From Capsulimonas corticalis (GTDB lineage: Bacteria; Armatimonadota; Armatimonadia; Armatimonadales; Capsulimonadaceae): 64,000 nt of DNA. Shown here piece after piece: positions 35,101-53,537 of this stretch; the stretch's first letter is position 1; each line of letters opens with the position of its first letter. The notes below the pieces were generated by a model, which made no database searches, had not been told where the DNA came from, and saw only the letters and a program-made list of their open reading frames with translations. The stretch is from assembly GCF_003574315.2 (NCBI RefSeq), contig NZ_AP025739.1, positions 4,278,001 to 4,342,000 on the forward strand, read 5' to 3'. Made by a program: the position numbers and the translations under genes.

Positions 35101-36889
35101 GCTGATATTGTTCATTCCTGCTATCGCCATCGTTTGAGAGATGTGTGAGAAGCTGATTTCGCAGTTCTTGCTCCGTCTTGGGCTTCTGTTCCGCAGCGTT
35201 TTGCGGAGTGTTGTCTGTATTGCTGAAGAGGATATCGGCGAAGTCCGCCTGCGGGAAGATCGCTTCGTAGATCTCCTTAAAAGCGCGTGTGGACTTTCGG
35301 ACGATGTACGTTGGGTCGACAAACTCGATATGGAAGCATCCCTGCTCCCATCCTATCGATGTGGACGTGGCTTCGGTTACCTCAGCTTGGTAGTCGAGAC
35401 AGTTGGCGCGGAGGCGTGCGTATAGGCGAGAGCGGAGGACACGCAGCTGCTGGACGGGGGCTTTGGAGGCGACGTCGGCTTGGTTAGATTGACTGATGGC
35501 AATGTTGTCATCGCTATTCATAGCAGTGTCTTCAATTTTTAAAGCGCGGCTCCAAATACCGATGATCGTATCGCGAAGGACTTGCAGGCAGATTTCGACC
35601 CAGAGGTTTTTGTCCGCCGGGGCGTTCAGGGCCGACCCGTTCGGTGCGAATGTTTTTCGAGCGGCGCTCAGAACTTCCTTGAATTTCAGGGCCTTGGCGT
35701 TGTGTTCGGTAATGGTCGCCAGGCACTCCGTGAGACTCTGACGATGCGGCACATCGAAGTAGAAACCGGTGTTTTGCAGCGCGTTGGGCTTAGCGCCCGC
35801 CGCAACGCCGGACTCGCGGTTTTCCGGCGATGGTTCTACAAAGACGACTTTTCTCAACACCTCCTGAGAGGCCGGGCGGCGCGCAACTTCCTTCAGCACA
35901 AGGTTTAATGGGCGGTTATTGAGAAATCCGCCATCCGACATGTAGACGGGGCGATCGGCTGCGGGCGTCTCAATAATACCGCCCATCAGAACCGGGTCGA
36001 CTTCGGACGGCTCGAAGAGGGCGGGCAGGGAAGAGGTGGTGCGGGCGACGCGGGCGAGACGGTCCGCGACGCCGCGCCGGCGTTCGGGCGCGCTCTCGGC
36101 GGCGGCGGTGCTGGAGTCGCCGGCGCGCGCTTTGGCTTTTGCTTCGCTTTGAGCATCTGTGTCCGTGGGCCTGGCGGCGAGCGGGTGATCGTCGCTGTAG
36201 TCATATCGAAAATGGCTTTGGTTCTGGCGGGGGCGGTGTTTGAATTGGAAGACGCCGGCGTAGTCGTGATTGAAGACCGCTTTGCTGCGGGAATCAAAGT
36301 AGGCTTTTGTCAATGGTTCATAGTATGTGCCGGTGACAAAGAGGTCTAAGTCCGCGTAAACTACGTTCGGCTTTGCTCCTTTGGACGTCTCCCACCAGCC
36401 CGAGGGAACCGTGTATGCCGTTGGATATGGACCTGGCGAGTCGGTTTTGGAGAGTTGCTGGAACAGGCGCTGGACAAGAGGGAAATAGTAGCTTTCCCCC
36501 TTGAGAATAGACGTCACATTCCCGTCTTTAGGATCCTGCAGCAGATTATCGATGTCGGCTCCGCTCACCCAGACGGCGCGCATGGGCTCCAGCTCGGAGC
36601 CGCATGTCAGTGCGGTGCAGAGGCCAACGCCGTTGATGCCGCCAGCGGAGGTGCCGCTGACGATATCAACATAGGCGTGGCTTTGGGTGATGCGTTTGAG
36701 CAGGCCGTACATGCCCAGGCCATGCACCATCCGAAAGAGCTCTTGCGCGACGCCATGTTCGTAGATGGCGAGTGAGGTGCCGCCGACCATGCAGACGGCG
36801 ACGCGGACTTCGCGGACGGGAACCTGAGAGTCTTTGACAATCTGGGCGTCGCCGAGGCTATATCTGTCGATGTTTTTGGCGGATGGCAT
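32162..36889 (-). CDS. Giant patatin-like phospholipase with C-terminal membrane region
   Basis: A 1575-residue protein. The N-terminal ~400 residues are a patatin domain of the 'patatin-related' bacterial type: VRVAVCMVGGTSLAIYEHGV (oxyanion glycine loop), DIVSGTSAGGINGV with the nucleophile Ser81, and VYMSDGGFLNNRPLNL with the catalytic Asp319. Both dyad residues are present, so lipid acyl hydrolase activity is likely. A long charged helical region follows (about 400-1190). The last ~370 residues contain several membrane segments (AIAGFCEAIISWA, LILWMLAEP, WILAAAALTLSAIMAVIGAP, LTFLVMLVAAGSLWFKWG). No signal peptide, so the catalytic domain should be cytoplasmic. The gene sits 31 bases after the secretin-like gene. 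Confidence 0.88.
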   Translation of the reverse strand: MPSAKNIDRYSLGDAQIVKDSQVPVREVRVAVCMVGGTSLAIYEHGVAQELFRMVHGLGMYGLLKRITQSHAYVDIVSGTSAGGINGVGLCTALTCGSELEPMRAVWVSGADIDNLLQDPKDGNVTSILKGESYYFPLVQRLFQQLSKTDSPGPYPTAYTVPSGWWETSKGAKPNVVYADLDLFVTGTYYEPLTKAYFDSRSKAVFNHDYAGVFQFKHRPRQNQSHFRYDYSDDHPLAARPTDTDAQSEAKAKARAGDSSTAAAESAPERRRGVADRLARVARTTSSLPALFEPSEVDPVLMGGIIETPAADRPVYMSDGGFLNNRPLNLVLKEVARRPASQEVLRKVVFVEPSPENRESGVAAGAKPNALQNTGFYFDVPHRQSLTECLATITEHNAKALKFKEVLSAARKTFAPNGSALNAPADKNLWVEICLQVLRDTIIGIWSRALKIEDTAMNSDDNIAISQSNQADVASKAPVQQLRVLRSRLYARLRANCLDYQAEVTEATSTSIGWEQGCFHIEFVDPTYIVRKSTRAFKEIYEAIFPQADFADILFSNTDNTPQNAAEQKPKTEQELRNQLLTHLSNDGDSRNEQYQLLQGILRQINHVRDLADIIANTLVGVLGGMVNVDEFTALVSQSDTDAKSSQGKTTQSETEQSNSDGATQTISAVDNNLDNLWKLLVNNIYYVLSLTNNENYSFDPAATPTQGSSNAEAGTMEYEARQIKKISEDNCRKLLNPKEKMSPPSGFTPEQSILALLEDRIDRLVSEAALILTPSITYYRNLLDSCEQASPCGAPVPKRPIALEWATKIVGNFKEIGKGLQALDIRLFPTQHASDLANLDRIELLYVTPRDCTLGASFETAKNKLAGDVLGNLGGFLKRSWRVNDIMWGRLDSSGAFADMLLQQTRLIRILDAGQAAGNQMFGAIDRYITTGRIDTGTSDPDAIGVLLGGYWTADVKAAVKQWLSSNYAKDRTGLVDSESRNLVRDMILRRHHLEILEREVPEALAEAISEAAQWRCNGDTRYEEIRESTHDNEAASSANQTPILSIAQEASTIIDQLQTLSTPTRSESNIEIMRRTASRMVQDLFTQPDTNNTMRGKVTDRHGVSANIPGLLKVRRVAAAAILMIVKKTSSPNEASPGEIERYFSNGYAIGREEIAINIPPLVSIRRIAAAILIVLNVLDNCLTQLPVSKSATDLCRKYVLAPFRIAAGALYGFLTVLGGGKRLEVAVHTVAWTIIFGGVALVLALPSANKAPVWIAIGIAGFCEAIISWATSNRKFVQSLCLPGAVALILWMLAEPTKNIEWRWSAAGLLLLISCLTAISALLPPRSVPAILQRAAVVLGIGALLTLGVTYFGHNALPAPWSVIPFLQHVNIWILAAAALTLSAIMAVIGAPLNTPVASAGVASLELAPSLDAAERIISSWPAKRRSIRFGASLATDWIYIAIYVSLLNDFVAYVQSLGPNPAIHTSILSIALSLLAWAPLIAGFLDAAPENLGMLYVYRQRSKSFRTRPKFDFMAPRIIRWSSLNKFALTFLVMLVAAGSLWFKWGNDIRRPSSKVANIVKLISRPNPSLY

Positions 36890-36920
36890 TCACGTTCCTC
36901 CACTATGGCCGCTACTTGGT

Positions 36921-39900
36921 TTACTTGCCGTAAATCGCCGGCGGAGGCGGGGCCAGAGTTCGCCCCTTGATGATGGTGCGATGATTATTATAAATCGTTG
37001 TTTTTTCGTTATGGTTGATGACGGTCTCGGACAATACCGGGTGGTTGATATTGATGTGATTGTTCATCGTGTTCACTAATGGATCGATGAGAGGAGCTGG
37101 CGCTTTCTCTGGATCGGGTGTCGCAGCTGTCGGAGGCTGGAGGTCTAGTGGCGCTCGCGGATCGATGTCTTCGCGCGGGTTTTCGTCGGTGAGCAAACCG
37201 ACGATGTCCCCGACGGTGGGATAGATGCTGGTTTGGGCAAAGATTAGACTTTCCTGCTGCGTGGACTTTACACCGCCTGTTCGTGTGAAGTAGCCGATGA
37301 TGGGCAAATCTTTGAGAAGCGGCAGGCGATTCAGGCCGGGAATGCCGCCAGCTTTTTGTTCGGGGACGCCGACCTGAGAGTTCGCCTGAAATCGTGAGAT
37401 TTCTCGAAACTCTAAGTTGGTGAGCTGAACTTCGGTGTTGACGGCGTGCCGTTCGACACGGGGGATCTGAGCGCTGACAGTGCCATCTGGCTCAGTGAGC
37501 CGTGTGGAGGCGATGAAGTCGAACTTGAAACGCAGGGCTTGTCCCGAAGGGTCGAAGATGGGCGTGACCTGGAACATGTTGCCGGTGTTGACGCTGTAAA
37601 TCTCTCCCTTGGGCTGCTGCGGCTGCGCGGCGAGATCGCCGAGAAGGCTCACAACGCCGGCGAGCCGCCAGGCGTTTGTCTTCGAGATGTTTGTGAAGAT
37701 ATTGCTCAGGCCGCCGATGGCGAATGGAACCGTGACATTGAGTTTGGCGGCTCGCTGGTCTTCTATATATTGCTGGGCGATCTGACCGAGCTGCTGAGCG
37801 GAATCGAGAACGTTGTCGTCGGCGGGAAGCTGCGGATTCGCGGTGGCCGACGGGTCTAGCCTCGCGACAAGACGATTGGTGCAGAGCAGCGATTCGCGCT
37901 GAATGACGCCGAACTGCACGTCGGAAATGTGCGTTTCGTATTGAAGCTGCCATAGGGCGGGCTGGACGAAGTAGTGATCGAGGTCATCTTCGGCGACGAT
38001 GATCATGCGCTTGATCATGTCATCGGCGGCCGCAACGCGCGGAGTTGCGGATGATAGAGCGTTACGCTGCCAGGTGAGTTTGGTCAGCTCCCAGGCGTTT
38101 TGATCGAACTGATGGGCGACATCAGTCCCTAAAGCGACAAAGTTGCTTTGGTCGAGAGGAGGGGTGTGCGACGCTCCAGCGCTGAGCACTTCCAATCCTT
38201 TATTGAACCAATCGCCGGGGAGGATCTTTGCGCTCAAGGCTTTATTCTGAGACGCGATTTGTTTCTCGTTGAGCCATCCGACCAGGGGGATATATTGCAG
38301 GCGCAATAGCTGTGACGCCTGAGTTTTATCTGGGACGGTGTTTGGGATATCCGATATCTGCCGCAGGATACGACGCACTTCCATGGCGGCCGACGCACGG
38401 ACTTTGACCTGAAGCGCGGAGAGGATTTCGAGCTGGTTGCTGGTCATCTCATGGTTGTTGTCTTCGGACGGAACGCGTGTGGCGAGCGCTCCGAAGATGG
38501 TTCTGGGGAACGAGGGGTAGGCGCCGGTCGATCCATTGGAATGAAGTCCAGTTCCGAGAACCTGTTCATCTCCATACTGGGCGCCCAGATCGTCGATAAA
38601 TGATCGAAGCGCGACCTGTGAATTGGATGCCGCTGAGTTGGGATAAGCGTCGTTAAGCTCTAGCAGGAAGTTTCTCAGAATATTTTCACGAGATCGACGC
38701 TTGCCCAGACTCAGCTCGAAGAGAATCTCGCCGAGCGTCGTTCCGCGCGCGGGGTCGGGCAGGGTAAGGCGTGTGAGTCGCGAGAGTGATGCAAGCTGAT
38801 CTCCTTGCGGCAGAGTCTTGAGAATGCAGCAGTCATCGTCGCTTGCTGTCAATCGATCCTCTGGTACGTAAATGCCGTCGGGATTTTCCTCGCAACGCAC
38901 TCCGAGTCGATGGTGTAGCGCCCAGATAATTTCATCGAATTTTCGCTCAACGAGGGTTTCCCGTTCGGGTACTCGCACTGTCGCCCATTGATCCGCCAAT
39001 TCGTCTCGATGACCGCTTTTGAGTTCGAAAATATTATCGTACGCTGTAGAATTTGCCTGGCTATGAATCAACTGCGCGATTTCTGCGGCGCGCTCTTTCA
39101 GGCAATCGATTTCTTTCGCGCATGTGAATGTGTCCCAAGGGGCAATTGTGAATTCTTTCACCAGATAATGACGCTGCCGAGGGGCCATCTCCAATGCATC
39201 GAGGGCGTGCTGGAAATACATTCCTCCGCGACGCAGGCTTTGTTCTCGGGCCGCCTCATATCTGCTTTTTTTTGCCTTGTCTTTGATTTCGTTCGCGGCG
39301 ATGTCGCTGTAGCGGGCTTTTGCGTAGTAGTCGCGAGCAAGGCGGAAATCGACGAGAGCGGTGGCGAGATGTTCGGTGTCCGCGGGGATGTCGACTGGGT
39401 AGCCGAGCGCTTTGCGGATTTCGTCGGGATAGTAGTAGTAGCGAGCCAGTCGGTCGATCAGGCCCTGTGACGTTTCGGAATTGTCGAGCGGAGGAGACAG
39501 CGGCAATCCCGTTTTGCTATCGTTCGTTTTTAAGTAGTCATACGCCTGGTGTGTAGCTTCGTAAGTGATGGCTTCGACGTGGTTGACTTCGGCGTTGACG
39601 CTGTCGCGTAGAAGATCCTGGACGAGGGTAAGATTTCCGCGCAGATCGCGCAGTGTGCTGTCGATCCAGAACAAGGCGTTGTTCATTTTGTTCGTGTTGG
39701 AGCCGTTGAGCTGCATGCTCCAAAGGCTGATGCGGGCTTGCGGGGCGGGTTTGTCAAAGCCGGCGATCATTTCCTTGACATCATCGATATCACTCTGGAG
39801 GCCGCGCAGGAAGATCGTCTTGCTGTCTGGGTAGGCGAAAATGATGACGCGGTGTGCAGGATCGTTGCTGGAGACATCGGCGGGGGCGAAGTAATAGGGC

Positions 39901-41774
39901 GTGTTGTCCCGGAAGTCGACAAAGGCGTCGGAGGCTTGCTGAGCCAATATCTCGTTTTGCTTGCGCGTGGCGGCGACGGTAATTTGTGCTTGATGCAGAG
40001 TATCGGTGGCGACTTGCAGTTTGAGCGGGAGCGCGCTTTGCTCGTCCTGCAGGCTTTGTTTGTCCTGAGCGGCTTGCGTGGCGGCGGTTTGCGCGGCGTC
40101 GCGCACGGCTCCTTGCGCGGTTTGCTGGGCTTTGAGATCATTGTCTTGCGCCGTGAGATTGTCTTTGACGGCTTGCGTGAGAGTGGTGTTCTGAAGCTGT
40201 GTGCTGATGGCTGCCTCTTGTTTGGTGACGCGGTCGTACTCTGCCTGAGCGAGCGCGGCGCGGCGGGTCTGGGCGGCGGCGGTGGCGTTGACTTGCTGGA
40301 TCTCAGCGATCACTGCCTGTTTGCGTGCCCGGAGGTCGTTGATTGCGGCGATCTGCCCTGCGAGATCAGCGTCGGCTTGCGTGAGAGCGTCGCGTGTCTT
40401 TCGGACGAGAGCCGGACCGTTGGTCGCATCTTTGTTGAAGATATCCGCAGACGTGTTGAGCGCCTTGACAATACGAGGCACGTCGGTGAAGTAGTAGAGA
40501 CTTACCTGATCCTGGACAAAGTTCTGGACATCACCGGCGAGCGCATCGGAGAGACGCAACAGTGACGCCGCTTCGTTTGTCTGGGCGCTGTCTAAATTGA
40601 CGGCGATGGCCGTGTTGGCGTCCTTCATGGCGACGCCTTGCGCTGTCCACAATTTATTGAGTGGAATCCAAGAACTGACAATTGTGCGGCATGTGTCGAT
40701 GGCGGTTCGGGCGTCGGCTATTTCATTCGCTGTTTCTGGGATTTTCCGAACATCCGGGGGCAATTTTAGCTGCTCCTTGACCTTGGCTGTCAATTGGTCC
40801 AGTTTGTTAGCATGGTCATTCAGATCGGTGACAATGAGCGCTGGCATAGTGGGCAAGGCGGGGATGATAGTAAGGACTTTGGGTTTGAGTTTCGCGATGG
40901 CGGCGTCATAGTTAGACGATGAGGCGTTCGTCGCCGCCGCTTTGAAAAACGCGCTGGCTTGCTGAGTGAGCAGCACGCGTCTCTGTTCTTCATCGTAAAT
41001 TGGTTTGAGGGCGACCACAAGGCCGTCGCGCAGGGTGGGGATATCTGTCGATTTTAAGAAGTCGTCGGAATAAATGGCGACGCCATGAGTGGTGAGGGCG
41101 CTGAGGTTGCCGTCTAAGCTGGCGACGAGGGCGGTGGCGTAGTCCGCGCCTCCCGCGACTTTTGTGAGAAGAATGGTTTTCGCGTCCACGCCGACGATGC
41201 TCGTGGTAATGTCTGCTTGAAGCGCTTTGATATCTTTGACGATCGTGGTTGCGTTGTCAACGGCTGCTTGCTGCGCAGCGGTGAGATTGTGCCCGGTGCT
41301 TACGACGGCCGCAGCTTTGGTGAGTGCGTCTGCGTGAGATATAGCTTCATCGGCGGGCGGCGCGGCGGAGTAGGCGACGAGTGCGCCGTTCAGCGCGTTG
41401 ATATCCTTCGCCGCGACTTGCGGAATGGTGGTGAGCGCCTTGGCGGCGCCGCCGAGTTTGTCGATGGTGTTTGCGGTGGCGTCAAGATCCGGCGTGGCGG
41501 CGGGCATTGCGGCGATGACGGCTTTGGCGGCGTCGCGCTGGATTTTGGCGATATTGTAGGCGTCCTGCGCCGCCTTTGTTTCTGTGGCGAGGGTCGCGAG
41601 ATCGGCTGCAGCGGGCGGTGTCGGCGCAGGAGCTGCGGCTGGAGCTTCTGCTGGAGCAGGCGCATCGGCGGCTTGAGCGCTGATATGCGGCGCAATAAGA
41701 GCGGTGGCGACAAGTACGGCGGTTCCGGTATTTCGGAATTGGGACTTGCGATGTTTGCGAATGGATTTAGACAC
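36921..41774 (-). CDS. Secretin-like giant exported protein
   Basis: A 1617-residue exported protein. The signal peptide (VLVATALIAPHISAQA) is followed by an Ala/Pro-rich stretch, a long helical part with a clear coiled coil (about 490-640, e.g. EQSALPLKLQVATD region), and then PDSKTIFLRGLQSDIDDVKE, MIAGFDKPAPQARISLW, the pattern of a secretin N-domain. The C-terminal ~180 residues (FQVTPIFDPSGQALRFKFDF, EFREISRFQANSQVG, LPLLKDLPIIGYFTRTGG, ESLIFAQTSIYPTVGD) match the secretin core logic of GspD/PilQ. The family assignment is by motif style. First gene of the four-gene operon; divergent from the sedolisin gene. Confidence 0.75.
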   Translation of the reverse strand: MSKSIRKHRKSQFRNTGTAVLVATALIAPHISAQAADAPAPAEAPAAAPAPTPPAAADLATLATETKAAQDAYNIAKIQRDAAKAVIAAMPAATPDLDATANTIDKLGGAAKALTTIPQVAAKDINALNGALVAYSAAPPADEAISHADALTKAAAVVSTGHNLTAAQQAAVDNATTIVKDIKALQADITTSIVGVDAKTILLTKVAGGADYATALVASLDGNLSALTTHGVAIYSDDFLKSTDIPTLRDGLVVALKPIYDEEQRRVLLTQQASAFFKAAATNASSSNYDAAIAKLKPKVLTIIPALPTMPALIVTDLNDHANKLDQLTAKVKEQLKLPPDVRKIPETANEIADARTAIDTCRTIVSSWIPLNKLWTAQGVAMKDANTAIAVNLDSAQTNEAASLLRLSDALAGDVQNFVQDQVSLYYFTDVPRIVKALNTSADIFNKDATNGPALVRKTRDALTQADADLAGQIAAINDLRARKQAVIAEIQQVNATAAAQTRRAALAQAEYDRVTKQEAAISTQLQNTTLTQAVKDNLTAQDNDLKAQQTAQGAVRDAAQTAATQAAQDKQSLQDEQSALPLKLQVATDTLHQAQITVAATRKQNEILAQQASDAFVDFRDNTPYYFAPADVSSNDPAHRVIIFAYPDSKTIFLRGLQSDIDDVKEMIAGFDKPAPQARISLWSMQLNGSNTNKMNNALFWIDSTLRDLRGNLTLVQDLLRDSVNAEVNHVEAITYEATHQAYDYLKTNDSKTGLPLSPPLDNSETSQGLIDRLARYYYYPDEIRKALGYPVDIPADTEHLATALVDFRLARDYYAKARYSDIAANEIKDKAKKSRYEAAREQSLRRGGMYFQHALDALEMAPRQRHYLVKEFTIAPWDTFTCAKEIDCLKERAAEIAQLIHSQANSTAYDNIFELKSGHRDELADQWATVRVPERETLVERKFDEIIWALHHRLGVRCEENPDGIYVPEDRLTASDDDCCILKTLPQGDQLASLSRLTRLTLPDPARGTTLGEILFELSLGKRRSRENILRNFLLELNDAYPNSAASNSQVALRSFIDDLGAQYGDEQVLGTGLHSNGSTGAYPSFPRTIFGALATRVPSEDNNHEMTSNQLEILSALQVKVRASAAMEVRRILRQISDIPNTVPDKTQASQLLRLQYIPLVGWLNEKQIASQNKALSAKILPGDWFNKGLEVLSAGASHTPPLDQSNFVALGTDVAHQFDQNAWELTKLTWQRNALSSATPRVAAADDMIKRMIIVAEDDLDHYFVQPALWQLQYETHISDVQFGVIQRESLLCTNRLVARLDPSATANPQLPADDNVLDSAQQLGQIAQQYIEDQRAAKLNVTVPFAIGGLSNIFTNISKTNAWRLAGVVSLLGDLAAQPQQPKGEIYSVNTGNMFQVTPIFDPSGQALRFKFDFIASTRLTEPDGTVSAQIPRVERHAVNTEVQLTNLEFREISRFQANSQVGVPEQKAGGIPGLNRLPLLKDLPIIGYFTRTGGVKSTQQESLIFAQTSIYPTVGDIVGLLTDENPREDIDPRAPLDLQPPTAATPDPEKAPAPLIDPLVNTMNNHININHPVLSETVINHNEKTTIYNNHRTIIKGRTLAPPPPAIYGK

Positions 41775-44110: not shown

Positions 44111-44665
44111 TCAAAGATCACTTGCTGAAGTCTCACTATGGAGCGATCTCAACATACTGAATAATTCTAATGGAGAATACGCCTGCATCGGCTTGAGGCC
44201 AACGGGAGACGGATTCAAAGCGATCATTAAATCATTGGTGAAATCGCGCACAATTCCGCGCAACCAAACCGTGACTGTATGTTCCGAACCAAAATGTAGT
44301 AGGCGAAATTCATACTGGCCACGGGAAACTTCAGGAAGCGCTTCAACGAGACGAATAGCGTCAGCTGTTGCAGATACAAACGGCCCCACATTCACATTTG
44401 AGAATCTGGCCATTTCGCCATGATCCAAAGCTTCCGCTGTAGCGATCGCTTTGTCATTTTCCGTAATCAAATAGCGCCAGGCAATAACGACAGCTTGGTT
44501 CAGGCTCTCACTATGATCGATACTGTCAATGCTAAAAACACGGTGCGGTCGCTCAAATATGGCGTTAGGAGCAGATCGCCCTATAGCAATAGGCAGCAGG
44601 ACTGGAACGGATTGCTCAACAACATCAATTACATGTTTCGGGGCCGTTATCCATTCTATTGACAA
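44111..44665 (-). CDS. Hypothetical protein at the end of the conflict-type operon
   Basis: A soluble protein of about 184 residues and unknown family. It has regular alternating strands and helices (KHVIDVVEQSVPVLLPIAIG, SLNQAVVIAWRYLITENDKA, YEFRLLHFGSEHTVTVWLRG). The start is uncertain: an AAGGAAAC ribosome site lies eight bases before a TTG at 44665, overlapping the end of the protease gene by ten bases; another TTG at 44704 gives a longer overlap. The overlap itself argues for translational coupling with the papain-like protease gene, of which it could be an inhibitor or partner. Confidence 0.55.
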   Translation of the reverse strand: MSIEWITAPKHVIDVVEQSVPVLLPIAIGRSAPNAIFERPHRVFSIDSIDHSESLNQAVVIAWRYLITENDKAIATAEALDHGEMARFSNVNVGPFVSATADAIRLVEALPEVSRGQYEFRLLHFGSEHTVTVWLRGIVRDFTNDLMIALNPSPVGLKPMQAYSPLELFSMLRSLHSETSASDL

Positions 44666-45147
44666 TTTAAGTTTCCTTTTTGCGTCGGATATGTATGCCG
44701 CCAAATTAGACCGTTTGTATATCTGATCTGAAAGGCCTCGAAAACGTAGACCGATGATTGAAACAGTGGATCGCGTATTGAGATGATATTTCCTACTTGC
44801 GTCTCCTCATACCCGTCAATAACCAAAAAGTGACCGTTCTGGTTTAGTGATACCATAGCAGCGATGGGGCGATCTTGATCAATCTCCGCAGTCAGTTGAT
44901 CGAATTTTACTGGGCCCAGCATATCCACATAATTGCCTTTGAAGTTGAGAGCTTCCCTGAGGCCCCGCGGTATGTTACACGCCGGGTTTTCCGGGCAGCA
45001 ATTATGATGGCCTAGCACGTAATTGGCGATATCACACTGTTTGATTGAAATGGTAGGGCAATAGAACTTAGCGACACTCAAAGCAACAGCAGCCCAGCAC
45101 CATTCCGATTGGCATTGCTGCTCCATGGTAACGTTTAGATTTCTCAT
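44656..45147 (-). CDS. Papain-like cysteine protease
   Basis: About 163 residues. MEQQCQSEWCWAAVALSVAK holds the Gln oxyanion and the catalytic Cys in the W-C-W-A-A motif typical of the bacterial 'papain-like cysteine protease' family. The His is in NQNGHFLVIDGYEE and the Asp/Asn position in SIRDPLFQ. Extra Cys residues (CDIANYVLGHHNCCPENPAC) may bind metal or form disulphides. No signal peptide. The start at 45147 lies 13 bases after the stop of the upstream pseudopilin gene. Related bacterial proteases act as toxins or peptide-processing enzymes; either would fit the operon. Confidence 0.75.
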   Translation of the reverse strand: MRNLNVTMEQQCQSEWCWAAVALSVAKFYCPTISIKQCDIANYVLGHHNCCPENPACNIPRGLREALNFKGNYVDMLGPVKFDQLTAEIDQDRPIAAMVSLNQNGHFLVIDGYEETQVGNIISIRDPLFQSSVYVFEAFQIRYTNGLIWRHTYPTQKGNLNCQ

Positions 45148-45160
45148 TGGCGCTCGACTT

Positions 45161-45961
45161 TCAAGGTTTGATAACTTCGTAAAGCTTATCTTGGCAGGTA
45201 GGATCGCCAATGACACAATCTGGCTCGATTAAATAGCCAAGCTTATATGTTTGAAGTGTTGCTGGCGAATTAGCTATAATATCAGGGGTTACCATGTATG
45301 TGGGCAACATTGATTTAACATGACCGTCGCACCAAAGCACGTCGGTTCGATCTTGATGAAGTGCGTGGGTAGTCGGCACCCCGTATGTTTGATCTCCTGG
45401 GGCATAGTTGGTAAACTGGGAATACAACGTCGGGTTGATATAGATCGCTGTATCAGTCATTAATATGGTTTGGGCCGGAGCACTTTCCGTGGCCAAGCTT
45501 ACTGCCTGCGCCTGTTGAACAGGATCGTCGCTGGTAAACTGATATGGATAAATATACTCATTGACTCCATATCCAAACGCGGCGGAAGGATCAGAACCTA
45601 TTCCAGGTTTCAGACTTGCGGACGGACAGTTAAGCAAAATGTGATTTCCAGTCGTATAAGACGCCAGAATTCCCATCTGAGGGTTCATTTTTCCTGTACT
45701 AAGGTCAATCACTCCAAACCACGAATAGTAGAGGTTGGCGGTCGTCAGATAGCAGTTCAACGGATTGATTTCATCCACATCCTGACAGTATTGCATCCAC
45801 GCGAAACCAATCTGGTGCAAATTAGAGAGGCACGAAGCTTGGCGAGCTTTCTCTCTCGCCTGCGCCATTACTGGCAACAGAATGGCTGCTATTATGCTGA
45901 TGATCGCGATCACGACGAGGAGCTCGATTAGCGTAAATCCTTTTCTGCCTCGGTTCGCCAT
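45161..45961 (-). CDS. DUF1559 pseudopilin-like protein
   Basis: A 266-residue protein with the prepilin signal [20 protein letters not shown], then [20 protein letters not shown], a conserved Cys (LNCPSASLK), YGVN and the C-terminal H-x9-DGHVKS motif ([13 protein letters not shown]). AGGAGG precedes the ATG at 45961, which fixes the start; upstream in-frame codons are not conserved. It is unusual to find a member of this family inside an operon with AAA ATPases and a cysteine protease; it may be the exported product or substrate. Confidence 0.85.
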
Positions 45962-46089
45962 AGGCTTATCCTCCTGTAATGGCATACACTGCCCGAGAAG
46001 AGCAATTACTTTCCGCCAATTTCTCATAAAGTTAGCTGTAACGCCATTTCGATGCACTACAGCTTTATCAATTCACTCGCAGTTGCTCA

Positions 46090-46479
46090 TTAACAACTTC
46101 CGTCTTGTCCAGCATTGCATCGGTTTTGACAGATCACCCATGAGGCGGAGTTAACCCTACAGGTGCAGTTGCAGTTTCCGCCACCCGGAGGGTCTTCGTC
46201 GTAGGGAATAGGAAGATCACCTTGCATGTGTGCATTAATCATTAGTTCAAGCGCATCGTTTTGGAAATGCCTCAGGATATTACTTTCGTACCCTCTCTGA
46301 AAGTCACGTCGAAATTCATCCGCCTTAAAGTTGGAGACAGAACCGTATTTGTCGCTGTTGTTTCTCTCGTGGTCCATCCACATAATGATTCCATAGATGC
46401 AATCTTTTTGGATGTCGCTCAAGCTTTCGAGTCCGAAGCGAGCATTGGCGAGTGCAATGAGGTCTGCATTAAAACTCAA
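46090..46479 (-). CDS. Small protein with Cys-rich C-terminal tail
   Basis: A 129-residue protein starting with TTG, eight bases after a perfect AGGAGGT site. The N-terminal ~85 residues are helical and polar (LIALANARFGLESLSDIQKD, YGIIMWMDHERNN). After DEDPPGGG the last ~28 residues hold six Cys (NCNCTCRVNSASWVICQNRC, ending GQDGSC). A helical leader, a Gly-Gly-Gly junction and a short Cys-rich core resemble a ribosomally made peptide precursor or a secreted disulphide peptide; no modifying enzyme is seen, but a cysteine protease is two genes on. It begins 60 bases after the AAA-WD40 gene. Confidence 0.6.
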   Translation of the reverse strand: MSFNADLIALANARFGLESLSDIQKDCIYGIIMWMDHERNNSDKYGSVSNFKADEFRRDFQRGYESNILRHFQNDALELMINAHMQGDLPIPYDEDPPGGGNCNCTCRVNSASWVICQNRCNAGQDGSC

Positions 46480-46538: not shown

Positions 46539-49500
46539 TTATATTGAACTCTTTAAAATAGTGATATCACCTCTTTTCGATGATGCGGCTAGATAAACTC
46601 CATTTTCAGAAAATGTAATTTGACTAAGTCCTGGTTGCAAGTGAATAGAAAGCACTTCGATATTGTTCTTAATATCCCAAAACTTTAAGTCGCCAGCTGG
46701 AGTAATAAATGCGACGGTGGCTCCATCTTTCGTACGAGCGAACCCTGTGCACCAATGCCCAGTGTCAATACTGCGGATGATAACGCCAGTGAGGATGTTA
46801 TGTTCCGTCATGATCCCATTACTCCAAAGGATACTTATCCGACTTCCATCCGGTGAAAATTCTGCCTGGGCGGGACAACATGTTCCCCGAATTACGGTTT
46901 GAAGTTCTCGCGCCGATATTACGTCCCAGATTGTAACGCTGTTATCAACCGCTCCTGCGGCTATCCTGCTTCCGTCGATTGAACTCTTACAAAATACAAT
47001 CCGGCCGCTAAGTTGAGGTAGCTCGCTTATCATTTTTTTGTGTGCAACATCAAGCAATTGACAGCGCGTCTCTCCTATCAATAGGGAGAGTATTTGGCCG
47101 TTGGCCGAAATGCTGGTGTCGAAGTTTTTCGCAGGAGCAGGTATGCGAAATTGATCGATAATAGAACCACTAGCAGCGTAGTGTTTTACCTGTCCGTTTG
47201 CCTCAACAACGACAACATGATCAGATGCCGACGAGATCGAAATCCCGTCATCAAACTGCATCCTCCAAGCAGTCTGTAGATCTGATAGCCGCAAAGCCGA
47301 CAACGTCGCGCGCTGATTTGTATTGTAATACGCAATAAGGTATCTCTCTTGGTTGATAAATTGAATGCCGCTGCATATCGACAATCCTGTCGATATGGTG
47401 CGAATACTATCAATTCGCCCCACATCCCAGATCTTCACGCTATGGTCCACGGAACCTGTAACGATGATCCCGGTTCGTTCTCCAAAGTCACAAGTCCCAA
47501 CGTCGAGCTGATGACCAATTAAGGTCGCGGTGCAAGAGCGACGCAAGATGTTCCAAATCTCAGTAACACCGTCCTGTCTCGCTACAGCCGCCACCAACCC
47601 GTTCGGCGAATTATGCAGGCAAATATCGTTAATTCCACGTTTCCACCTTGGCGTCAAAGCGATATACGACACATCAGTCCGAATTCGGATGTATTCAATG
47701 TCGCCTTGTTCCGTACCAGCGACAATATTGAGGCCATCGCCAGAGATCGCAACCGCCGTAACCTCGTTGCTCAAACGAGACAATATTCGCGACGGGGTGC
47801 GGTTCAAGCATGTAGCCGTCATGAGTGCTCCTGAGTAATATCCAGCTACGATCTTCGTCCCTGTTATATTTAGAGAGGTAACTTGATCTCTTTTGCGCTT
47901 AAGTATTATGCTCCCTGTATTGGTCCTCAAGTTCCACGGTTCGACCGTTCCTGAGTTATCTCCAGTGATTAACCAGTTGCCATCACCCGAAAACGAACAA
48001 TATGCAGGAAAAAGCCGATAAAAACGACCGACGGGCTGACCGGTTTTGCTTTTGAACAGATAGACATAATTGTCACTGCAGCTAATCGCGACTAGATTTC
48101 CGAGCTTGTCAAATCTTGCTGAGAAGCATTGCAATGGGGGGATAGCCAAGTGAATAGAGGCCACGAGCTTTGTGGTCTTGATATTCCATAAAAAAGAATT
48201 GCCGCGATCGTCTACAGCCGCAATTGTGTGACCGCCAGGCAATGCTCGAACTGCAAGAACGGGACCCGCGCATCCAGTGAGCGTTGCGATCTCAGAGTGG
48301 CATATATGCCAAAGATATCGGAATTCAAAACGGCTTGCCATCGATCCGTGGCTGGCGTGTACACAGTCGGTCAGCAACTGATCGGCCCGTGCAGCGTTAT
48401 TCTCCTCTAACGCCCGCTGGGCAAGCATGATGTCGTCGAGCGAACGCTGATAATTGGATTCACTGAGATCGCGTGATAGTTTCATTTCCGCTGAGCGCGC
48501 ATGTTGCTCTGCCTTGATTGTTGTGTACGCGAAGACGACAAGAACCGCAACGATGCCCACCGCAATAGCCACGGCTGTCAGCAACCCACGCCGGAACGCG
48601 GCTCGTTCCCTTCGAACATCGGCATCAGGGAGGTTCTCGTCAACCCACTTCGCGTTAAAGACACGTCTGTAGATCGTATTTCTCACCCGTAATCGCCCAT
48701 CCGATACTTTAACGACGCCCGCCAATCTCAACTGCGCAACGACCGGATCGGCTGGATCGTTCGCGACTGGCTTGCCGGCAAGCACTCGACGGTAGCGGTT
48801 AATTACGACGGCGGGGTCGCTGCCGCCGGTTTTCAGGGTGTTGTGGACAAAAATGAGATTGTCCTCAGACATGCGCCGGCGGCTTGTGAGGAAGAGTTCG
48901 TGACAGAGATAATCGACGTTGACAGCAATGTCCGGATCTTGCGAAATGGCGAGGCATAGTTTCTGCGTCAGATAGGGATGCCCGCCTGTCCAGTACATAA
49001 TCCGGTCGAGCATTTTGCGAGCGCGTTCGGGATCAACGCTGAGGCCGGATTCGAGCTGGGCTGCTTCGTTGCGGCTGAAGTCTGATAGCTCAATTTGACG
49101 CCCGATGTTGAACGGGGTGGTGTGGGCGTCACGGATAAGGTCGGCGGGAGTCGCGACGCCGAGAAGGCAAAAGGTAAGCCGGCGCATTACCGGGTCGGTA
49201 GCACGGTTGTTATAACAGTGGCGGATGGCGGCGAAGAACTCATCCGTGGAAAATTTGAGGCCGCGAATGAAGTCGATCTCGTCAATGAAAATGGCCAGCG
49301 GACCTTCGACATGGGTGAGACCGATTTCCGAAATAGCATGCGTGAAGCGGTAGAGAGGACCATGCCGCTCGTTTTCGGTCCAATAGCAATCCATCTCATC
49401 CTTCACAGAGAGCTGATGACCTATCTCCGCAACGAGACCAAAGTACCATTGTTCGATTGAAAGGTTAGCGCCAATTGAGGTAAGGTCAAGAAGCACTGGT

Positions 49501-49712
49501 GTGATGCCGGCCTCCTGCAGACGCCGCGCCGTGCGATGCATCAGGCTCGACTTGCCCATCTGGCGTGATGTCAAGACGTAGGAATAGTGGCCGTCTTGTA
49601 TCGATTCAAACAGCTCATCGTCGGCTGGACGAACGACATAGGAGTGAGCGCCCGGCATGAGATTCCCACCGGCAACATAGAAATCCGCTTGTTCCGTGGC
49701 GCTGGTAGTCAT
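46539..49712 (-). CDS. AAA ATPase (AAA_35 type) with membrane anchor and WD40 propeller
   Basis: A 1057-residue protein. The N-terminal ATPase has Walker A SRQMGKSS (49-56) and Walker B LAIFIDEIDFI (139-149), then TPFNIGRQIELSDFSRNEAA and WTGGHPYLTQKLC, hallmarks of the AAA_35-type STAND-like ATPases. A winged-helix-like part precedes a single membrane segment (LLTAVAIAVGIVAVLVVFAY, near residue 380). Residues ~450-1057 form WD40 repeats (e.g. TSLNITGTKIVAGYYSG, TGSVDHSVKIWDV, AAGAVDNSVTIWDV), a likely sensor or scaffold. It starts directly at the stop of the Lon-AAA gene (TAAATG), so the two are coupled. Confidence 0.9.
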   Translation of the reverse strand: MTTSATEQADFYVAGGNLMPGAHSYVVRPADDELFESIQDGHYSYVLTSRQMGKSSLMHRTARRLQEAGITPVLLDLTSIGANLSIEQWYFGLVAEIGHQLSVKDEMDCYWTENERHGPLYRFTHAISEIGLTHVEGPLAIFIDEIDFIRGLKFSTDEFFAAIRHCYNNRATDPVMRRLTFCLLGVATPADLIRDAHTTPFNIGRQIELSDFSRNEAAQLESGLSVDPERARKMLDRIMYWTGGHPYLTQKLCLAISQDPDIAVNVDYLCHELFLTSRRRMSEDNLIFVHNTLKTGGSDPAVVINRYRRVLAGKPVANDPADPVVAQLRLAGVVKVSDGRLRVRNTIYRRVFNAKWVDENLPDADVRRERAAFRRGLLTAVAIAVGIVAVLVVFAYTTIKAEQHARSAEMKLSRDLSESNYQRSLDDIMLAQRALEENNAARADQLLTDCVHASHGSMASRFEFRYLWHICHSEIATLTGCAGPVLAVRALPGGHTIAAVDDRGNSFLWNIKTTKLVASIHLAIPPLQCFSARFDKLGNLVAISCSDNYVYLFKSKTGQPVGRFYRLFPAYCSFSGDGNWLITGDNSGTVEPWNLRTNTGSIILKRKRDQVTSLNITGTKIVAGYYSGALMTATCLNRTPSRILSRLSNEVTAVAISGDGLNIVAGTEQGDIEYIRIRTDVSYIALTPRWKRGINDICLHNSPNGLVAAVARQDGVTEIWNILRRSCTATLIGHQLDVGTCDFGERTGIIVTGSVDHSVKIWDVGRIDSIRTISTGLSICSGIQFINQERYLIAYYNTNQRATLSALRLSDLQTAWRMQFDDGISISSASDHVVVVEANGQVKHYAASGSIIDQFRIPAPAKNFDTSISANGQILSLLIGETRCQLLDVAHKKMISELPQLSGRIVFCKSSIDGSRIAAGAVDNSVTIWDVISARELQTVIRGTCCPAQAEFSPDGSRISILWSNGIMTEHNILTGVIIRSIDTGHWCTGFARTKDGATVAFITPAGDLKFWDIKNNIEVLSIHLQPGLSQITFSENGVYLAASSKRGDITILKSSI

Positions 49713-51884
49713 TTACTTCCAAGGCCTCCAGAAATTCCGCCAAAACGACGTCCTGGGGTGGAGCTCCAGTTGCGCCTCTTTGTCTCTGGGCAAGAAATGC
49801 GCTCGAAGGTATTGCGTGTAGATTTCGCAGCGGATTCGCACATTGGAGCAATCGTCGCCTACGACCACGCCTGCGCTTCGCAGATGGAGCCAAGCGTCGT
49901 TATCCGTGCAGCAGCCGCCTTGAAGAAGGTCTTGAATGGCGGACATCAGCTCGGGATTCTGCGCGACGATGCGGAGCCGACGCAGATGGCTTCCGAATGG
50001 CCCGTTATCCAGACTTGCGCTCGCGGCGAACTCCGAAACGGACTTGTGTTCATAGGCCATCCAGGACAATCCTCGGCACACAAGGTGTGGGTGACCTCCG
50101 GCAAGAAATTGGAACTGATCGATAGCGGAGTCGTTTAGAAGCGGCCTCCCAAGCCGCTCGTTCAACGCGGCGATCTGGTCGCGAGTGAAGTCGGCGAGCT
50201 CAACTTTGACGCCAACGTTGAACGGCGATTGATACGCATCCTGGATCAGGAGATGCGTCTCGGTAGCGTAGGAAAGCACGAGTGTGAGATTGCCGAGTTC
50301 GGAATGTATTGGCCGTCGATTATGCCAGGAGCGCATCAGACTGAAGACGTCGGCGTAGTAGTCGAACTCGAAGAGCCGGTCGACCTCGTCCATAAACCAG
50401 ATGACCGGAGTGCGCAGCGCATGTTTGAAGAGGAAGTTCTCCAGGTTCTTATTGGGGCCATCGCGGTCGTCGTAAATATCATCCATGACAACGTCCAAGC
50501 TGAGTTCCCGAGTGAACACCCGCGCCAGCGAACAAAACAGATCCTTCTGTGTGCGAAGGTTTTCCCGTCCCATACTTTGAAGGTCAACATATACAAGCCT
50601 GACATCGCTTCGACGGACATGATCGACTCCGCGCACCAACGTCGATGTCTTGCCGATTTGCCGAGGGCCTTTGACAAGCACGATCATGGGGCGCCGGCTG
50701 AGGGCGTCTCGAAACGCCATATCGGAGGCTCGCTCAACATAGACAGGAGATCCGAGCGGCAGGACCCCACCATCATCAGCGACGACCATCGACTGAATTA
50801 GTGACGGGGGAGAAGCGACGGCGCTGTCGACGAGTTTTACGGCGTCCGCGAAGGCGCCAACGCCAAGGATGGCGACATCTTGCAGGTGACCGTAAAATGC
50901 AACCTGGCTGGCTTGTTCCTCAGAGACCATTAACCGACGGATGCCGTGTTTAGCGCAGCCGCGCACCTTTTCGTAGGCCCCGCCGACGGCGTGGCAGCAA
51001 CCGTCAGATTGCGTCCGTCCAGGTCGAGTGAGGGCGAAAGATACGGCAAGACTACGGTCAATTGCCTTGTATCCGCGATGAAACGCGTAGAGTCCGGCCG
51101 CGAGCGCGCCTCCTCCAGACGGGCCGCGCAGAACCAGCTTTTGGAGAAACAGTTCGTTCTCCGGACGCCTTGGAGCAAGACGCACCCGGATGCTGCCGAT
51201 TTCTTCACCGGGCGCAAGGCGCCTCACCTCTTCTATTGCGCAACGATATATAGCAAGGAATTCGGCATCGAAGCAGCGAGTCGCAATTTGATCGGGGGCA
51301 GGATAAGCCGCCGAGGCGTTGTACGGGCGGACTTCGAGTACGAAGTCCGCGAGAAGGGTGTCGACACTCTCGCCGGCGATGACCATCCGCTCGGCCAGTA
51401 CTAGAGGGAAGGATGTCGTGATGGTCGATCCGTCGATCGAATCGTCAATACCGGAAAGAGTGTCGACGAGATCGCGCCAAAAGGCAATCGGCAAATCGGC
51501 AAAGGGGCCAGGTCTACTCACGGCGATCTCTGTCGCCAGAGTGAGCCTTGCGGATGCATCGCGATAGTTTCGGCCTATGGATAACTGTTCGGAGACATCG
51601 ATCAGCATTCGCAGCCATGTCTGCCTCCATTTGAAGGCTTCTTGATCACCTGCCTCGCGAATATCCGCAACCGAACTCGCGCCGGCCAGCGACCTCGCCC
51701 CATTGTCCTGAAGCCAGGCGCGCCAATCGCCAAAGGCGTCGCCATGCCCTGCGAGTACAGCGTTGCGGCATGCCCCAGTAAATTTCGGCAGGACGCGATC
51801 GATCCAATCGAGCCCCATTCCATAAGTGTTGGGTTTCTCGAAAAGCTCCTTCGTCACATCATATAGGTGCTCGAGCGTGGTCAA
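49713..51884 (-). CDS. Lon-type protease domain fused to AAA_35-type ATPase
   Basis: A 723-residue protein. After an alpha-helical N-terminal region (1-200), residues ~210-350 look like a Lon (S16) proteolytic domain: VLRGPSGGGALAAGLYAFHR with the putative Ser256, and HAVGGAYEKVRGCAKHGIRR with Lys306, the Ser-Lys dyad 50 residues apart. The C-terminal ATPase (from about 378) has GPRQIGKTST (406-415), VIWFMDEVD (494-502), SPFNVGVKVELADFTRDQIA and LAGGHPHLVCRG, closely parallel to the next gene's ATPase. The domain order is reversed relative to classical Lon. It starts with TTG in a TTGA overlap with the anti-sigma gene. Confidence 0.82.
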   Translation of the reverse strand: MTTLEHLYDVTKELFEKPNTYGMGLDWIDRVLPKFTGACRNAVLAGHGDAFGDWRAWLQDNGARSLAGASSVADIREAGDQEAFKWRQTWLRMLIDVSEQLSIGRNYRDASARLTLATEIAVSRPGPFADLPIAFWRDLVDTLSGIDDSIDGSTITTSFPLVLAERMVIAGESVDTLLADFVLEVRPYNASAAYPAPDQIATRCFDAEFLAIYRCAIEEVRRLAPGEEIGSIRVRLAPRRPENELFLQKLVLRGPSGGGALAAGLYAFHRGYKAIDRSLAVSFALTRPGRTQSDGCCHAVGGAYEKVRGCAKHGIRRLMVSEEQASQVAFYGHLQDVAILGVGAFADAVKLVDSAVASPPSLIQSMVVADDGGVLPLGSPVYVERASDMAFRDALSRRPMIVLVKGPRQIGKTSTLVRGVDHVRRSDVRLVYVDLQSMGRENLRTQKDLFCSLARVFTRELSLDVVMDDIYDDRDGPNKNLENFLFKHALRTPVIWFMDEVDRLFEFDYYADVFSLMRSWHNRRPIHSELGNLTLVLSYATETHLLIQDAYQSPFNVGVKVELADFTRDQIAALNERLGRPLLNDSAIDQFQFLAGGHPHLVCRGLSWMAYEHKSVSEFAASASLDNGPFGSHLRRLRIVAQNPELMSAIQDLLQGGCCTDNDAWLHLRSAGVVVGDDCSNVRIRCEIYTQYLRAHFLPRDKEAQLELHPRTSFWRNFWRPWK

Positions 51885-52546
51885 GGAAGTAGTCTCGCGG
51901 CGATTTTCTGGCTGTCGATTTGAAGATCGGTGCCAAGCAGAACAAACTGGTAGAAGGTCGCCTTCCTTGTGATTAATACCTTCCTCGTTTCTGGGTCGGC
52001 AACAACGACTTCCGCCTGCCGTCCCGCATATTGATCACGAAGCGAATGGGATGTCGTCAGGCGCACATAATACGCCGGCCCTCGCCTCTGAACGACGCCC
52101 AACAGACCAGCGACAACCGTTCCATCCTCTTCATGTATCGGAAAATGAAGCTCGTCGGAATCGTCGCTGGCAGCCATAGCTCCAAGAGCTGGACGTAACC
52201 CAACGAGCGTTACCCAATCGCGGATAGCCGTCCACCAGGAATTGCTATCAGCGCCTCTCATCACGGCGGCGCGATGGATCCTTGTTTCGCGTCTCTCAAT
52301 CACCAGGGGGTCTTCCCATGAGGAAAGTGTGGCTTGAAGTTCTGCAAGCTCCGCAGCGCATTGGACGCATTGGCCAATGTGTTCGCGTATTAACGGCTCA
52401 AGCTCCGGGTGCATTACGCCTGCGCTCAGCTCTATCAATTCGGTGTCGGAAGCGTGGGCCTCTTCGCCCAATGTATTGTGTAGCAAGTCCTTAAATGACA
52501 TCGGCGCCTTCATGCCATTGCGGTTCCCCGAGTTCAATTCGCCCAT
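51881..52546 (-). CDS. Zinc-finger anti-sigma factor
   Basis: A 221-residue protein. The segment HPELEPLIREHIGQCVQCAA contains H-x3-C-x2-C, the zinc-binding anti-sigma (ZAS/zf-HC2) signature, followed by a helix that clamps the sigma factor. The C-terminal ~110 residues (EEDGTVVAGLLGVVQRRGPA, YAGRQAEVVVADPETRKVLI) form a beta-rich domain without an obvious membrane segment, so it may be a soluble sensor. Its start overlaps the end of the sigma gene by 13 bases and its stop overlaps the Lon-AAA start, as expected for a sigma/anti-sigma pair controlling its own operon. Confidence 0.8.
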   Translation of the reverse strand: MGELNSGNRNGMKAPMSFKDLLHNTLGEEAHASDTELIELSAGVMHPELEPLIREHIGQCVQCAAELAELQATLSSWEDPLVIERRETRIHRAAVMRGADSNSWWTAIRDWVTLVGLRPALGAMAASDDSDELHFPIHEEDGTVVAGLLGVVQRRGPAYYVRLTTSHSLRDQYAGRQAEVVVADPETRKVLITRKATFYQFVLLGTDLQIDSQKIAARLLP

Positions 52547-53244
52547 CCTTTCTGGGTTAGAAACTCCTGCACCTTAACAGCTCCGCGATGGACCCAAACT
52601 CTTATGGTGCCAACAGGCGCCCCCAGTTCCTCCGCAATCTCTTCGTTCGACATTTCCTCAAAGTGCTTGAGCTCGAACGCTCTGCGCTGTTGCGCCGGCA
52701 GATTGCCTGCGTTAAGGAAATCGACTACCGCCTGGATAAGGGACTGCTGTTCCAGAAGCGCGTGTGGCCCGGCGGCAGAATCGAGGAGCTCATTGTCACT
52801 TAAGCCTTCTTCAGCCACTGCTGCGGTTATGGAAATCGATCCGCGTTTCCGCTTGCGGATCTCTTCGCCGCGCCGAATGCACTCGCGCTTAAAGCATACG
52901 TGAAGAGCATATGTCGCAAAGTCAGGCCCGCCTGGTCGATATGAGAGACGGCTGCGTTCTACCCCCTCCGAGTAGAAGGTCACCCAAGCTTCCTCAACAT
53001 CTTCCAGAGTAACGCCAGAGCCTAGATACCGGTATGCTGCAGCCCAAACAAGCCTTTCTTGTTCTCGCTCCATCCACCAGCACATTGACCTGTCCACCTC
53101 GTACGAGTCCCAGCAGCGGCCAGCCTTATTGTCAAGAATAGAAATGTTCTCAGGTCTTATCATCACAAAATCCGCAGATACAATTAATATTCTGTGAGCA
53201 GCGCTAAGTTGGGCGTTGGGGTGCGTCCTACGCTCAAATGGCAA
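52534..53244 (-). CDS. ECF-type sigma factor
   Basis: About 236 residues. Region 2 spans roughly 60-125 (REQERLVWAAAYRYLGSGVT, LEDVEEAWVTFYSEGVERSR). Region 4 is clear at the C-terminus: LPAQQRRAFELKHFEEMSNE followed by the HTH EIAEELGAPVGTIRVWVHRG. The first start codon is TTG at 53244 with no ribosome site; ATG at 53163 is an alternative, and the conserved part begins after both. As first gene of the coupled operon it should direct RNA polymerase to the operon promoter when released from the zinc-finger protein. Confidence 0.88.
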   Translation of the reverse strand: MPFERRTHPNAQLSAAHRILIVSADFVMIRPENISILDNKAGRCWDSYEVDRSMCWWMEREQERLVWAAAYRYLGSGVTLEDVEEAWVTFYSEGVERSRLSYRPGGPDFATYALHVCFKRECIRRGEEIRKRKRGSISITAAVAEEGLSDNELLDSAAGPHALLEQQSLIQAVVDFLNAGNLPAQQRRAFELKHFEEMSNEEIAEELGAPVGTIRVWVHRGAVKVQEFLTQKGWAN

Positions 53245-53537
53245 TAGGAAACAGATGTCGATTTGTTACAGCAAAATCGACGCCGTGCAAAAAAGTTTTG
53301 AACCGGAGAATTACTGGAAACGAGCCTGTCACCTGTGTTGTATGGTGACAGAAGGACAGGATGCGCAGAGGATCACGCACCCACTTGGCATTATACCATC
53401 AATTCCTTTTATAGTTAATCTCTGCAACAACGGCCTTAGGTTTTAATTGGTAGACACTGAGTTTATTGTGTTACGGTATTCTTTGAGGTAGGGCGCCTTA
53501 TATTTAAACGTACGCACAGATGCTCGACGAAATTTCA
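53245..53537. other. Upstream region of the sigma-factor operon
   Basis: No gene is seen. The region is AT-richer than the genes around it and should hold the promoter of the minus-strand operon, but I could not identify its boxes with confidence. Confidence 0.3.

Follow-up and report, generated by a model that had tools for sequence, protein, structure and literature searches.

Organization of the operon

The DNA stretch analysed here, hereafter the window, comprises 64,000 bp of the Capsulimonas corticalis genome (7.65 Mb, one contig; NZ_AP025739.1, positions 4,278,001–4,342,000), and positions are those of the window unless a locus name precedes them. An operon of four genes lies on the minus strand (46539–53244) and encodes, in order, an extracytoplasmic function (ECF) sigma factor, a ZAS-type anti-sigma factor, a fusion of a Lon-like protease to an AAA_35 NTPase, and an AAA_35 protein with a predicted transmembrane segment and WD40 repeats. 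On balance, we read the operon as a two-NTPase switch whose output is the proteolytic release of the sigma factor. The combination of genes is unusual and, as judged by genome comparison, it is real and conserved at small scale. A first-pass annotation of the window had described the genes as overlapping or abutting, and this was confirmed. All four ORFs that it delimited are open; the sigma and anti-sigma genes overlap by 13 bp (52534–52546), the anti-sigma and protease genes overlap by 4 bp (TTGA, 51881–51884), and the stop codon of the protease gene directly precedes the start codon of the final gene (TAA/ATG, 0 bp, 49713/49712). The two overlaps and the junction indicate coupled translation.

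Sigma factor and putative promoter

The first gene of the operon (52534–53163, minus strand) encodes a sigma factor of 209 aa when read from the ATG codon at 53163. Sigma region 4 was identified with Pfam (PF08281, E 2.4e-14), as was region 2 with a score below the model cut-off (PF04542, E 5.7e-4), and the protein matches the ECF superfamily model above its cut-off (TIGR02937, E 4.2e-18). Profile searches matched the structures of SigW, RpoE and SigH, and the protein is 57% identical to the sigma factor of a sister species. The identity of this gene as an ECF sigma factor stands, while the TTG start at 53244 that was first assigned to it does not: the ATG is the likelier start, because homology with the sister protein begins at 53163 and a conserved putative promoter overlaps the TTG codon.

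This putative promoter (TGTAAC-N16-CCTAT, 53244–53270, minus strand) has its elements and spacing kept 5' of the sister sigma gene (L016, 6950–6976), and the sequence upstream of the gene in both species reads GCTGTAAC-N16-CCTAT[TA]G. Equally many shared bipartite words were found in 4 of 500 base-shuffled pairs, a figure that overstates the case since the motif was picked post hoc. The conserved placement before the sigma gene suggests autoregulation. Exact matches to TGTAAC-N16-CCTAT occur twice in the C. corticalis genome and once in the sister genome, which is about the chance expectation and uninformative on a regulon. The second C. corticalis match (42192–42166) is treated as chance, because the sister orthologue of the gene that follows it has no such site within approximately 1.6 kb upstream, even allowing two mismatches. 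The match lies before a gene for a 1617-aa secretin-like protein, which is followed by a gene for a 1575-aa patatin/DUF3376 protein with a hydrophobic C-terminus (together 32162–41774); the secretin-like gene is kept in the sister species.

Anti-sigma factor

Directly following the sigma gene is a gene (51881–52546, minus strand) encoding a 221-aa protein that has no transmembrane segment and features an N-terminal ZAS motif, H56-x3-C60-x2-C63 (HxxxCxxC, residues 56–63). No relevant zinc-finger match was returned from Pfam or NCBIfam, where zinc fingers that are small and divergent readily escape detection. A profile of the protein matches eight further zinc-finger-like proteins of the phylum, and four of these adjoin sigma genes. 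The initial designation as a zinc-finger anti-sigma factor is upheld by the motif and by these relatives, and it lacks a match to a curated family.

Residues 119–128 of the structural model have predicted local distance difference test (pLDDT) values below 50, and they cover most of the linker GAMAASDD (residues 122–129; 52160–52183, minus strand). The pattern GA[ML]AA-x-DD is common to this protein and the sister anti-sigma factor, which makes the linker a candidate cleavage region; the placement of a cut site here is a guess. The fold of the C-terminal domain was not assignable, with a best VIA Z-score of 6.2.

Lon-like protease/AAA_35 fusion

The third gene (49713–51884, minus strand) encodes a 723-aa fusion protein. 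Residues 153–357 (50814–51428, minus strand) are predicted to form a Lon proteolytic domain; the AF2 model of this region (pLDDT 74, predicted template modelling score 0.78) is matched to Lon by VIA with a Z-score of 19.8 and a root mean square deviation of 2.3 over 171 aligned residues. LonB models match weakly (E 0.0017), and with a profile built from three homologues, GPSGGGAL and VGGAYEKV fall on the Ser and Lys motifs of human mitochondrial Lon, at E ~0.4 only. The Lon fold of the N-terminal module is well supported by the model. Other proteins ranked by the fold search are BrxL, RadA and ComM; CalpL is not among the best matches listed, which excludes nothing about CalpL as the nearest Lon fold. 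Both contexts of the candidate Lon dyad, GPSxG and GGxxEK, are present, with Ser256 in GPSGGGAL (codon 51117–51119, minus strand) and Lys306 in VGGAYEKV (codon 50967–50969, minus strand), and the three homologues, which span families, all retain both residues. The first-pass annotation had proposed an N-terminal Ser-Lys protease domain, to be judged by conservation of these residues, and its proposal is borne out to that extent. The AAA_35 NTPase domain of the fusion (49803–50768, minus strand; PF14516, E 2.5e-60) contains the Walker A motif GPRQIGKTS, the Walker B motif FMDEVD and the motif GGHP.

AAA_35-WD40 protein

The final gene (46539–49712, minus strand) encodes a 1057-aa protein with a second AAA_35 NTPase domain (48654–49649, minus strand; PF14516, E 3.3e-31). 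This domain is followed by a hydrophobic stretch predicted to be a transmembrane segment (residues 376–399; 48516–48587, minus strand) and by WD40 repeats identified with Pfam, which form the predicted propeller region (46539–48317, minus strand). The membrane anchor and WD40 part reported earlier for this protein were thereby found again, and the motifs listed as common to the two ATPases, RQ[IM]GK[TS]S, [ST]PFN...L-x-DF-[ST]-R and GGHP, are all present. The WD40 half of the gene (46539–48000) exhibits a guanine-cytosine (GC) content of 44–48%, against 53–56% in the NTPase half, which may reflect an exchange of the sensor part.

Distribution and pairing of AAA_35 NTPases

In a maximum-likelihood tree, effector-type (clade A) and sensor-type (clade B) AAA_35 domains separate with support of 100/100, and each clade holds one of the two window proteins, A the fusion and B the WD40 protein. 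They are therefore old partners rather than recent duplicates; the earlier description of the two as paralogues holds for the shared family and not for a recent duplication. Of 291 Armatimonadota genomes, 62 encode AAA_35. A further 60 AAA_35 loci were fetched, the last 20 partly picked for a visible pair, and for 49 of the 65 effector-type genes with a C-terminal AAA_35 domain an AAA_35-WD40-type gene is no more than 600 bp away. A fairer figure comes from the 40 loci picked by effector score alone, where 26 of 41 are paired (26 of 36 without those at contig or region ends). A hydrophobic segment follows the NTPase in 47 of 50 clade B sensors.

The N-terminus of the clade A proteins is taken to be the output, because other members carry TIR, cyclase, kinase or winged helix-turn-helix-BTAD domains there. 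Among 60 effector-type proteins, the outputs were TIR (28), BTAD (27), cyclase-like (20), winged-helix regulator (16), protein kinase (2) and Lon (1), and the output class changes approximately six times in a quick tree. Among the remaining 59 effector proteins of the scan, none was found to have a Lon plus sigma/anti-sigma output. No sister A/B pair in the phylum beyond the Lon loci adjoins sigma and anti-sigma genes, save for one ordinary ECF sigma gene beside a TIR-AAA_35 gene (L043); no anti-sigma gene was found with it, and it was taken as chance.

Paired forms are also found on plasmids, where the kinase, CHAT and LuxR assignments were made by reading the sequences. A Chloroflexota plasmid (L093, 6203–8419) encodes a kinase, AAA_35 and LuxR-type helix-turn-helix in one chain beside a large AAA_35 partner, and this protein would join signal and transcription output in a single polypeptide. 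An Abditibacteriota plasmid encodes TIR-AAA_35 beside a large partner, and a Nostoc plasmid (L095, 5957–11031) encodes CHAT-like, TIR and AAA_35 domains in one protein beside a large WD40 partner. The C. corticalis genome itself has a second AAA_35 locus about 85 kb away (L006, 5240–15874; G000 C1:4226000–4245900), with a cyclase-TIR-AAA_35 gene beside two AAA_35-transmembrane-WD40 genes; no sigma or anti-sigma gene was seen adjoining it.

Conservation of the gene set

The metagenome-assembled genome of the sister species (G134, L016) encodes the sigma factor, anti-sigma factor, Lon-AAA_35 protein and AAA_35-WD40 protein in unchanged order, and its contig ends inside the fourth gene. Beyond the sigma factor, identities are 40% for the anti-sigma factor and approximately 50% for the Lon module. 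In another Armatimonadota family (G145, L017), a sigma gene and a gene for a zinc-finger/HEAT anti-sigma-like protein accompany a gene for a 1672-aa protein, in which the same N-terminal Lon module is followed by an NTPase-like region (recognized by reading the sequence, with no Pfam match) and then by HEAT repeats. The conservation check on the gene set thus found the whole set in the sister species and part of it in a distant family, so that the Lon/sigma/anti-sigma association spans three loci in two families. The association outlasts a change of NTPase, since G145 keeps the sigma factor and zinc-finger anti-sigma factor before a Lon module with a different ATPase part. The anti-phage defence genes for QatB, QatC and QatD (L017, 15894–18579) lie approximately 3 kb upstream of the G145 Lon locus, and a HerA/VirD4-like ATPase gene lies on its other side.

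No relatives of the Lon module were found on plasmids or in viral contigs, and a scan of GTDB contigs with narrow peptide patterns returned just the two loci already known. Short Lon matches in other Armatimonadota (G151, G126 and others; E ~5e-4) were set aside, as they cover the catalytic stretch only, as in ordinary Lon-family proteases.

Directly 3' of the operon (44111–46479) are four small minus-strand genes with a GC content of 44–47%, compared with 55–60% around them. They encode a 129-aa Cys-rich protein, a DUF1559 pilin-like protein, a papain-like (C39/C70) peptidase and a fourth product without assignment.

Proposed mechanism and alternative explanations

The best reading of the operon, and the one in which all four parts are most directly employed, would lead from the sensor through NTPase activation and Lon cleavage to sigma release. 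The membrane-anchored AAA_35-WD40 protein would sense a signal via its propeller and activate the AAA_35 domain of its partner through contact of the paralogous NTPase domains. This assembly would activate the Lon-like Ser/Lys protease of the fusion. The protease would cut the cytoplasmic anti-sigma factor encoded with it, the likeliest site being the flexible linker that precedes the C-terminal beta domain. Once free, the ECF sigma factor would transcribe further targets and the operon itself, with autoregulation through the putative promoter. The earlier suggestion was regulated proteolysis under the control of its own sigma factor; proteolysis is retained as the best reading, and the direction is likelier to be from protease to anti-sigma factor to sigma factor, with sigma feedback on the operon. 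The purpose would most likely be to answer phage or other invaders. The TIR and CHAT relatives, the patchy distribution, the plasmid carriage and the Qat neighbour suggest defence, but general signalling fits the regulator outputs equally. The conflict role that had been put forward is supported by association only (QatBCD near one homologue; TIR, CHAT and kinase outputs), and approximately half of the sister systems have transcription-regulator outputs.

Several observations weigh against the proposed mechanism. The full-length Lon module occurs in 3 of 291 Armatimonadota genomes, two of them from one genus. The NTPase-like region of the G145 protein (L017, 6077–11095) has the Walker A sequence GDPGAGRS, in which Arg appears to replace Lys, and no Pfam NTPase domain, and this Lon-fused homologue may lack the usual ATP hydrolysis. 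The G145 anti-sigma factor is barely alignable outside the ZAS part, and the model of the window anti-sigma factor, in which a low-confidence linker joins a helical N-terminal part to a C-terminal beta domain, has low confidence overall. Known defence genes were not found adjoining the operon. All function ascribed to the system, including cleavage, binding and a role against phage, is inferred from sequence.

RadA, ComM and BrxL use the Lon fold without proteolysis, and for this reason the fold does not establish the predicted protease activity. For BrxL, this use of the fold has been described (PMC12839542). The ranking of these three proteins in the fold search would agree with a catalytically dead scaffold in the window protein as well, but Ser256, Lys306 and the surrounding Lon motifs are kept in three homologues across families, and we regard a dead scaffold as very improbable. 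An active Lon-like domain might cut other proteins as a protease toxin of the abortive-infection type, with the sigma and anti-sigma factors merely controlling expression of the operon. TIR domains often kill the infected cell, and their presence in sister systems fits a toxin, as does the self-regulation that the putative promoter would give. Sister pairs in the phylum lack adjoining sigma and anti-sigma genes, however, while three of three Lon modules have both. As only the Lon loci among the pairs have both, the two factors follow the Lon output rather than general expression control, and a toxin is unlikely.

A stronger competitor, though we still lean away from it, is a housekeeping or developmental response such as envelope or stress signalling, in which the sensor would read the state of the cell and the protease would free the sigma factor. 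The BTAD, winged-helix and cyclase-like parts of the effector-type proteins, the membrane anchoring of the sensors and the organism being a Capsulimonas relative are in keeping with such a response. The TIR domains in nearly half of the same proteins, the CHAT-TIR and kinase forms on plasmids, the patchy distribution among the genomes and the QatBCD genes near the distant Lon homologue speak against it.

Comparison with known systems

Paired AAA_35 proteins form a platform that occurs in roughly one-fifth of the Armatimonadota genomes and, in other phyla, on plasmids; its outputs are transcription, TIR, cyclase, kinase, CHAT or Lon. Searches of the open-access literature yielded no account of AAA_35/WD40 pairs and none of a protease/anti-sigma defence system independent of CRISPR. 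PADLOC gave no strong match of the window operon to an anti-phage system, only weak P-loop matches to PDC-S01 (E 2.2e-4 or worse). The outputs of the platform are a ready series of natural domain exchanges with which signalling by such sensors could be examined. Pairs in Armatimonadota, Chloroflexota, Cyanobacteriota and Abditibacteriota resemble the window operon in having both NTPase clades encoded side by side and a sensor with a transmembrane segment and WD40 repeats; they differ in their TIR, cyclase, winged helix-turn-helix-BTAD, kinase or CHAT outputs, where the window operon has Lon plus the sigma/anti-sigma pair. AAA_35 and WD40 are also accessory domains of cyanobacterial sigma factors (PMC11119718).

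In the STAND NTPase conflict systems described for multicellular bacteria (Kaur et al. 2020, 2021), an NTPase likewise acts as the switch that links a variable repeat sensor to an effector, and some of their neighbourhoods encode ECF sigma factors (PMC8195603, PMC7159879). In contrast, AAA_35 and a Lon-like protease were not found in these two publications, and the NTPases of the window are split over two proteins. The APAF-1 apoptosome, in which a WD40 sensor on an NTPase activates a protease, is similar by analogy only, as it has another NTPase clade, a caspase output and the sensor and NTPase in a single polypeptide.

The closest parallels in logic are found in type III CRISPR systems. CalpL, a Lon protease, cuts the anti-sigma factor CalpT bound to CalpS, and this proteolysis frees the sigma factor (PMC11417357). 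The window operon shares with CalpL/CalpT/CalpS a Lon-family protease joined to an activation domain, a co-encoded anti-sigma factor and an ECF sigma factor. CalpL, however, is gated by a cA4-binding SAVED domain, and the window protein is proposed to be gated by AAA_35 with its AAA_35-WD40 partner. A Pfam scan found no SAVED domain in the 723-aa protein, which places it outside the Calp type; a genome search for SAVED gave no match, but its controls were equally silent. No CRISPR-like array is present at 30000–60000 of the window, Cas10 not having been searched genome-wide. In the type III-E Craspase system, Csx29 cuts Csx30 and frees CASP-sigma, so that cleavage of a sigma inhibitor likewise starts a transcriptional response (PMC10028731); there, the protease is caspase-like (CHAT) and gated by an RNA-guided effector. 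Given CalpL/T/S and Craspase/Csx30, it is established that activated proteases cut sigma inhibitors in nature. We tentatively suggest that the window operon could be a CRISPR-independent immune alarm, running from a WD40-NTPase sensor through a Lon-type protease to a sigma factor; it would then be one of the exchangeable outputs of a two-NTPase platform that is widespread and undescribed. Protease-driven sigma release in immunity is already known from CRISPR type III, and the same logic would here have an NTPase/WD40 gate; if true, this logic arises without CRISPR.

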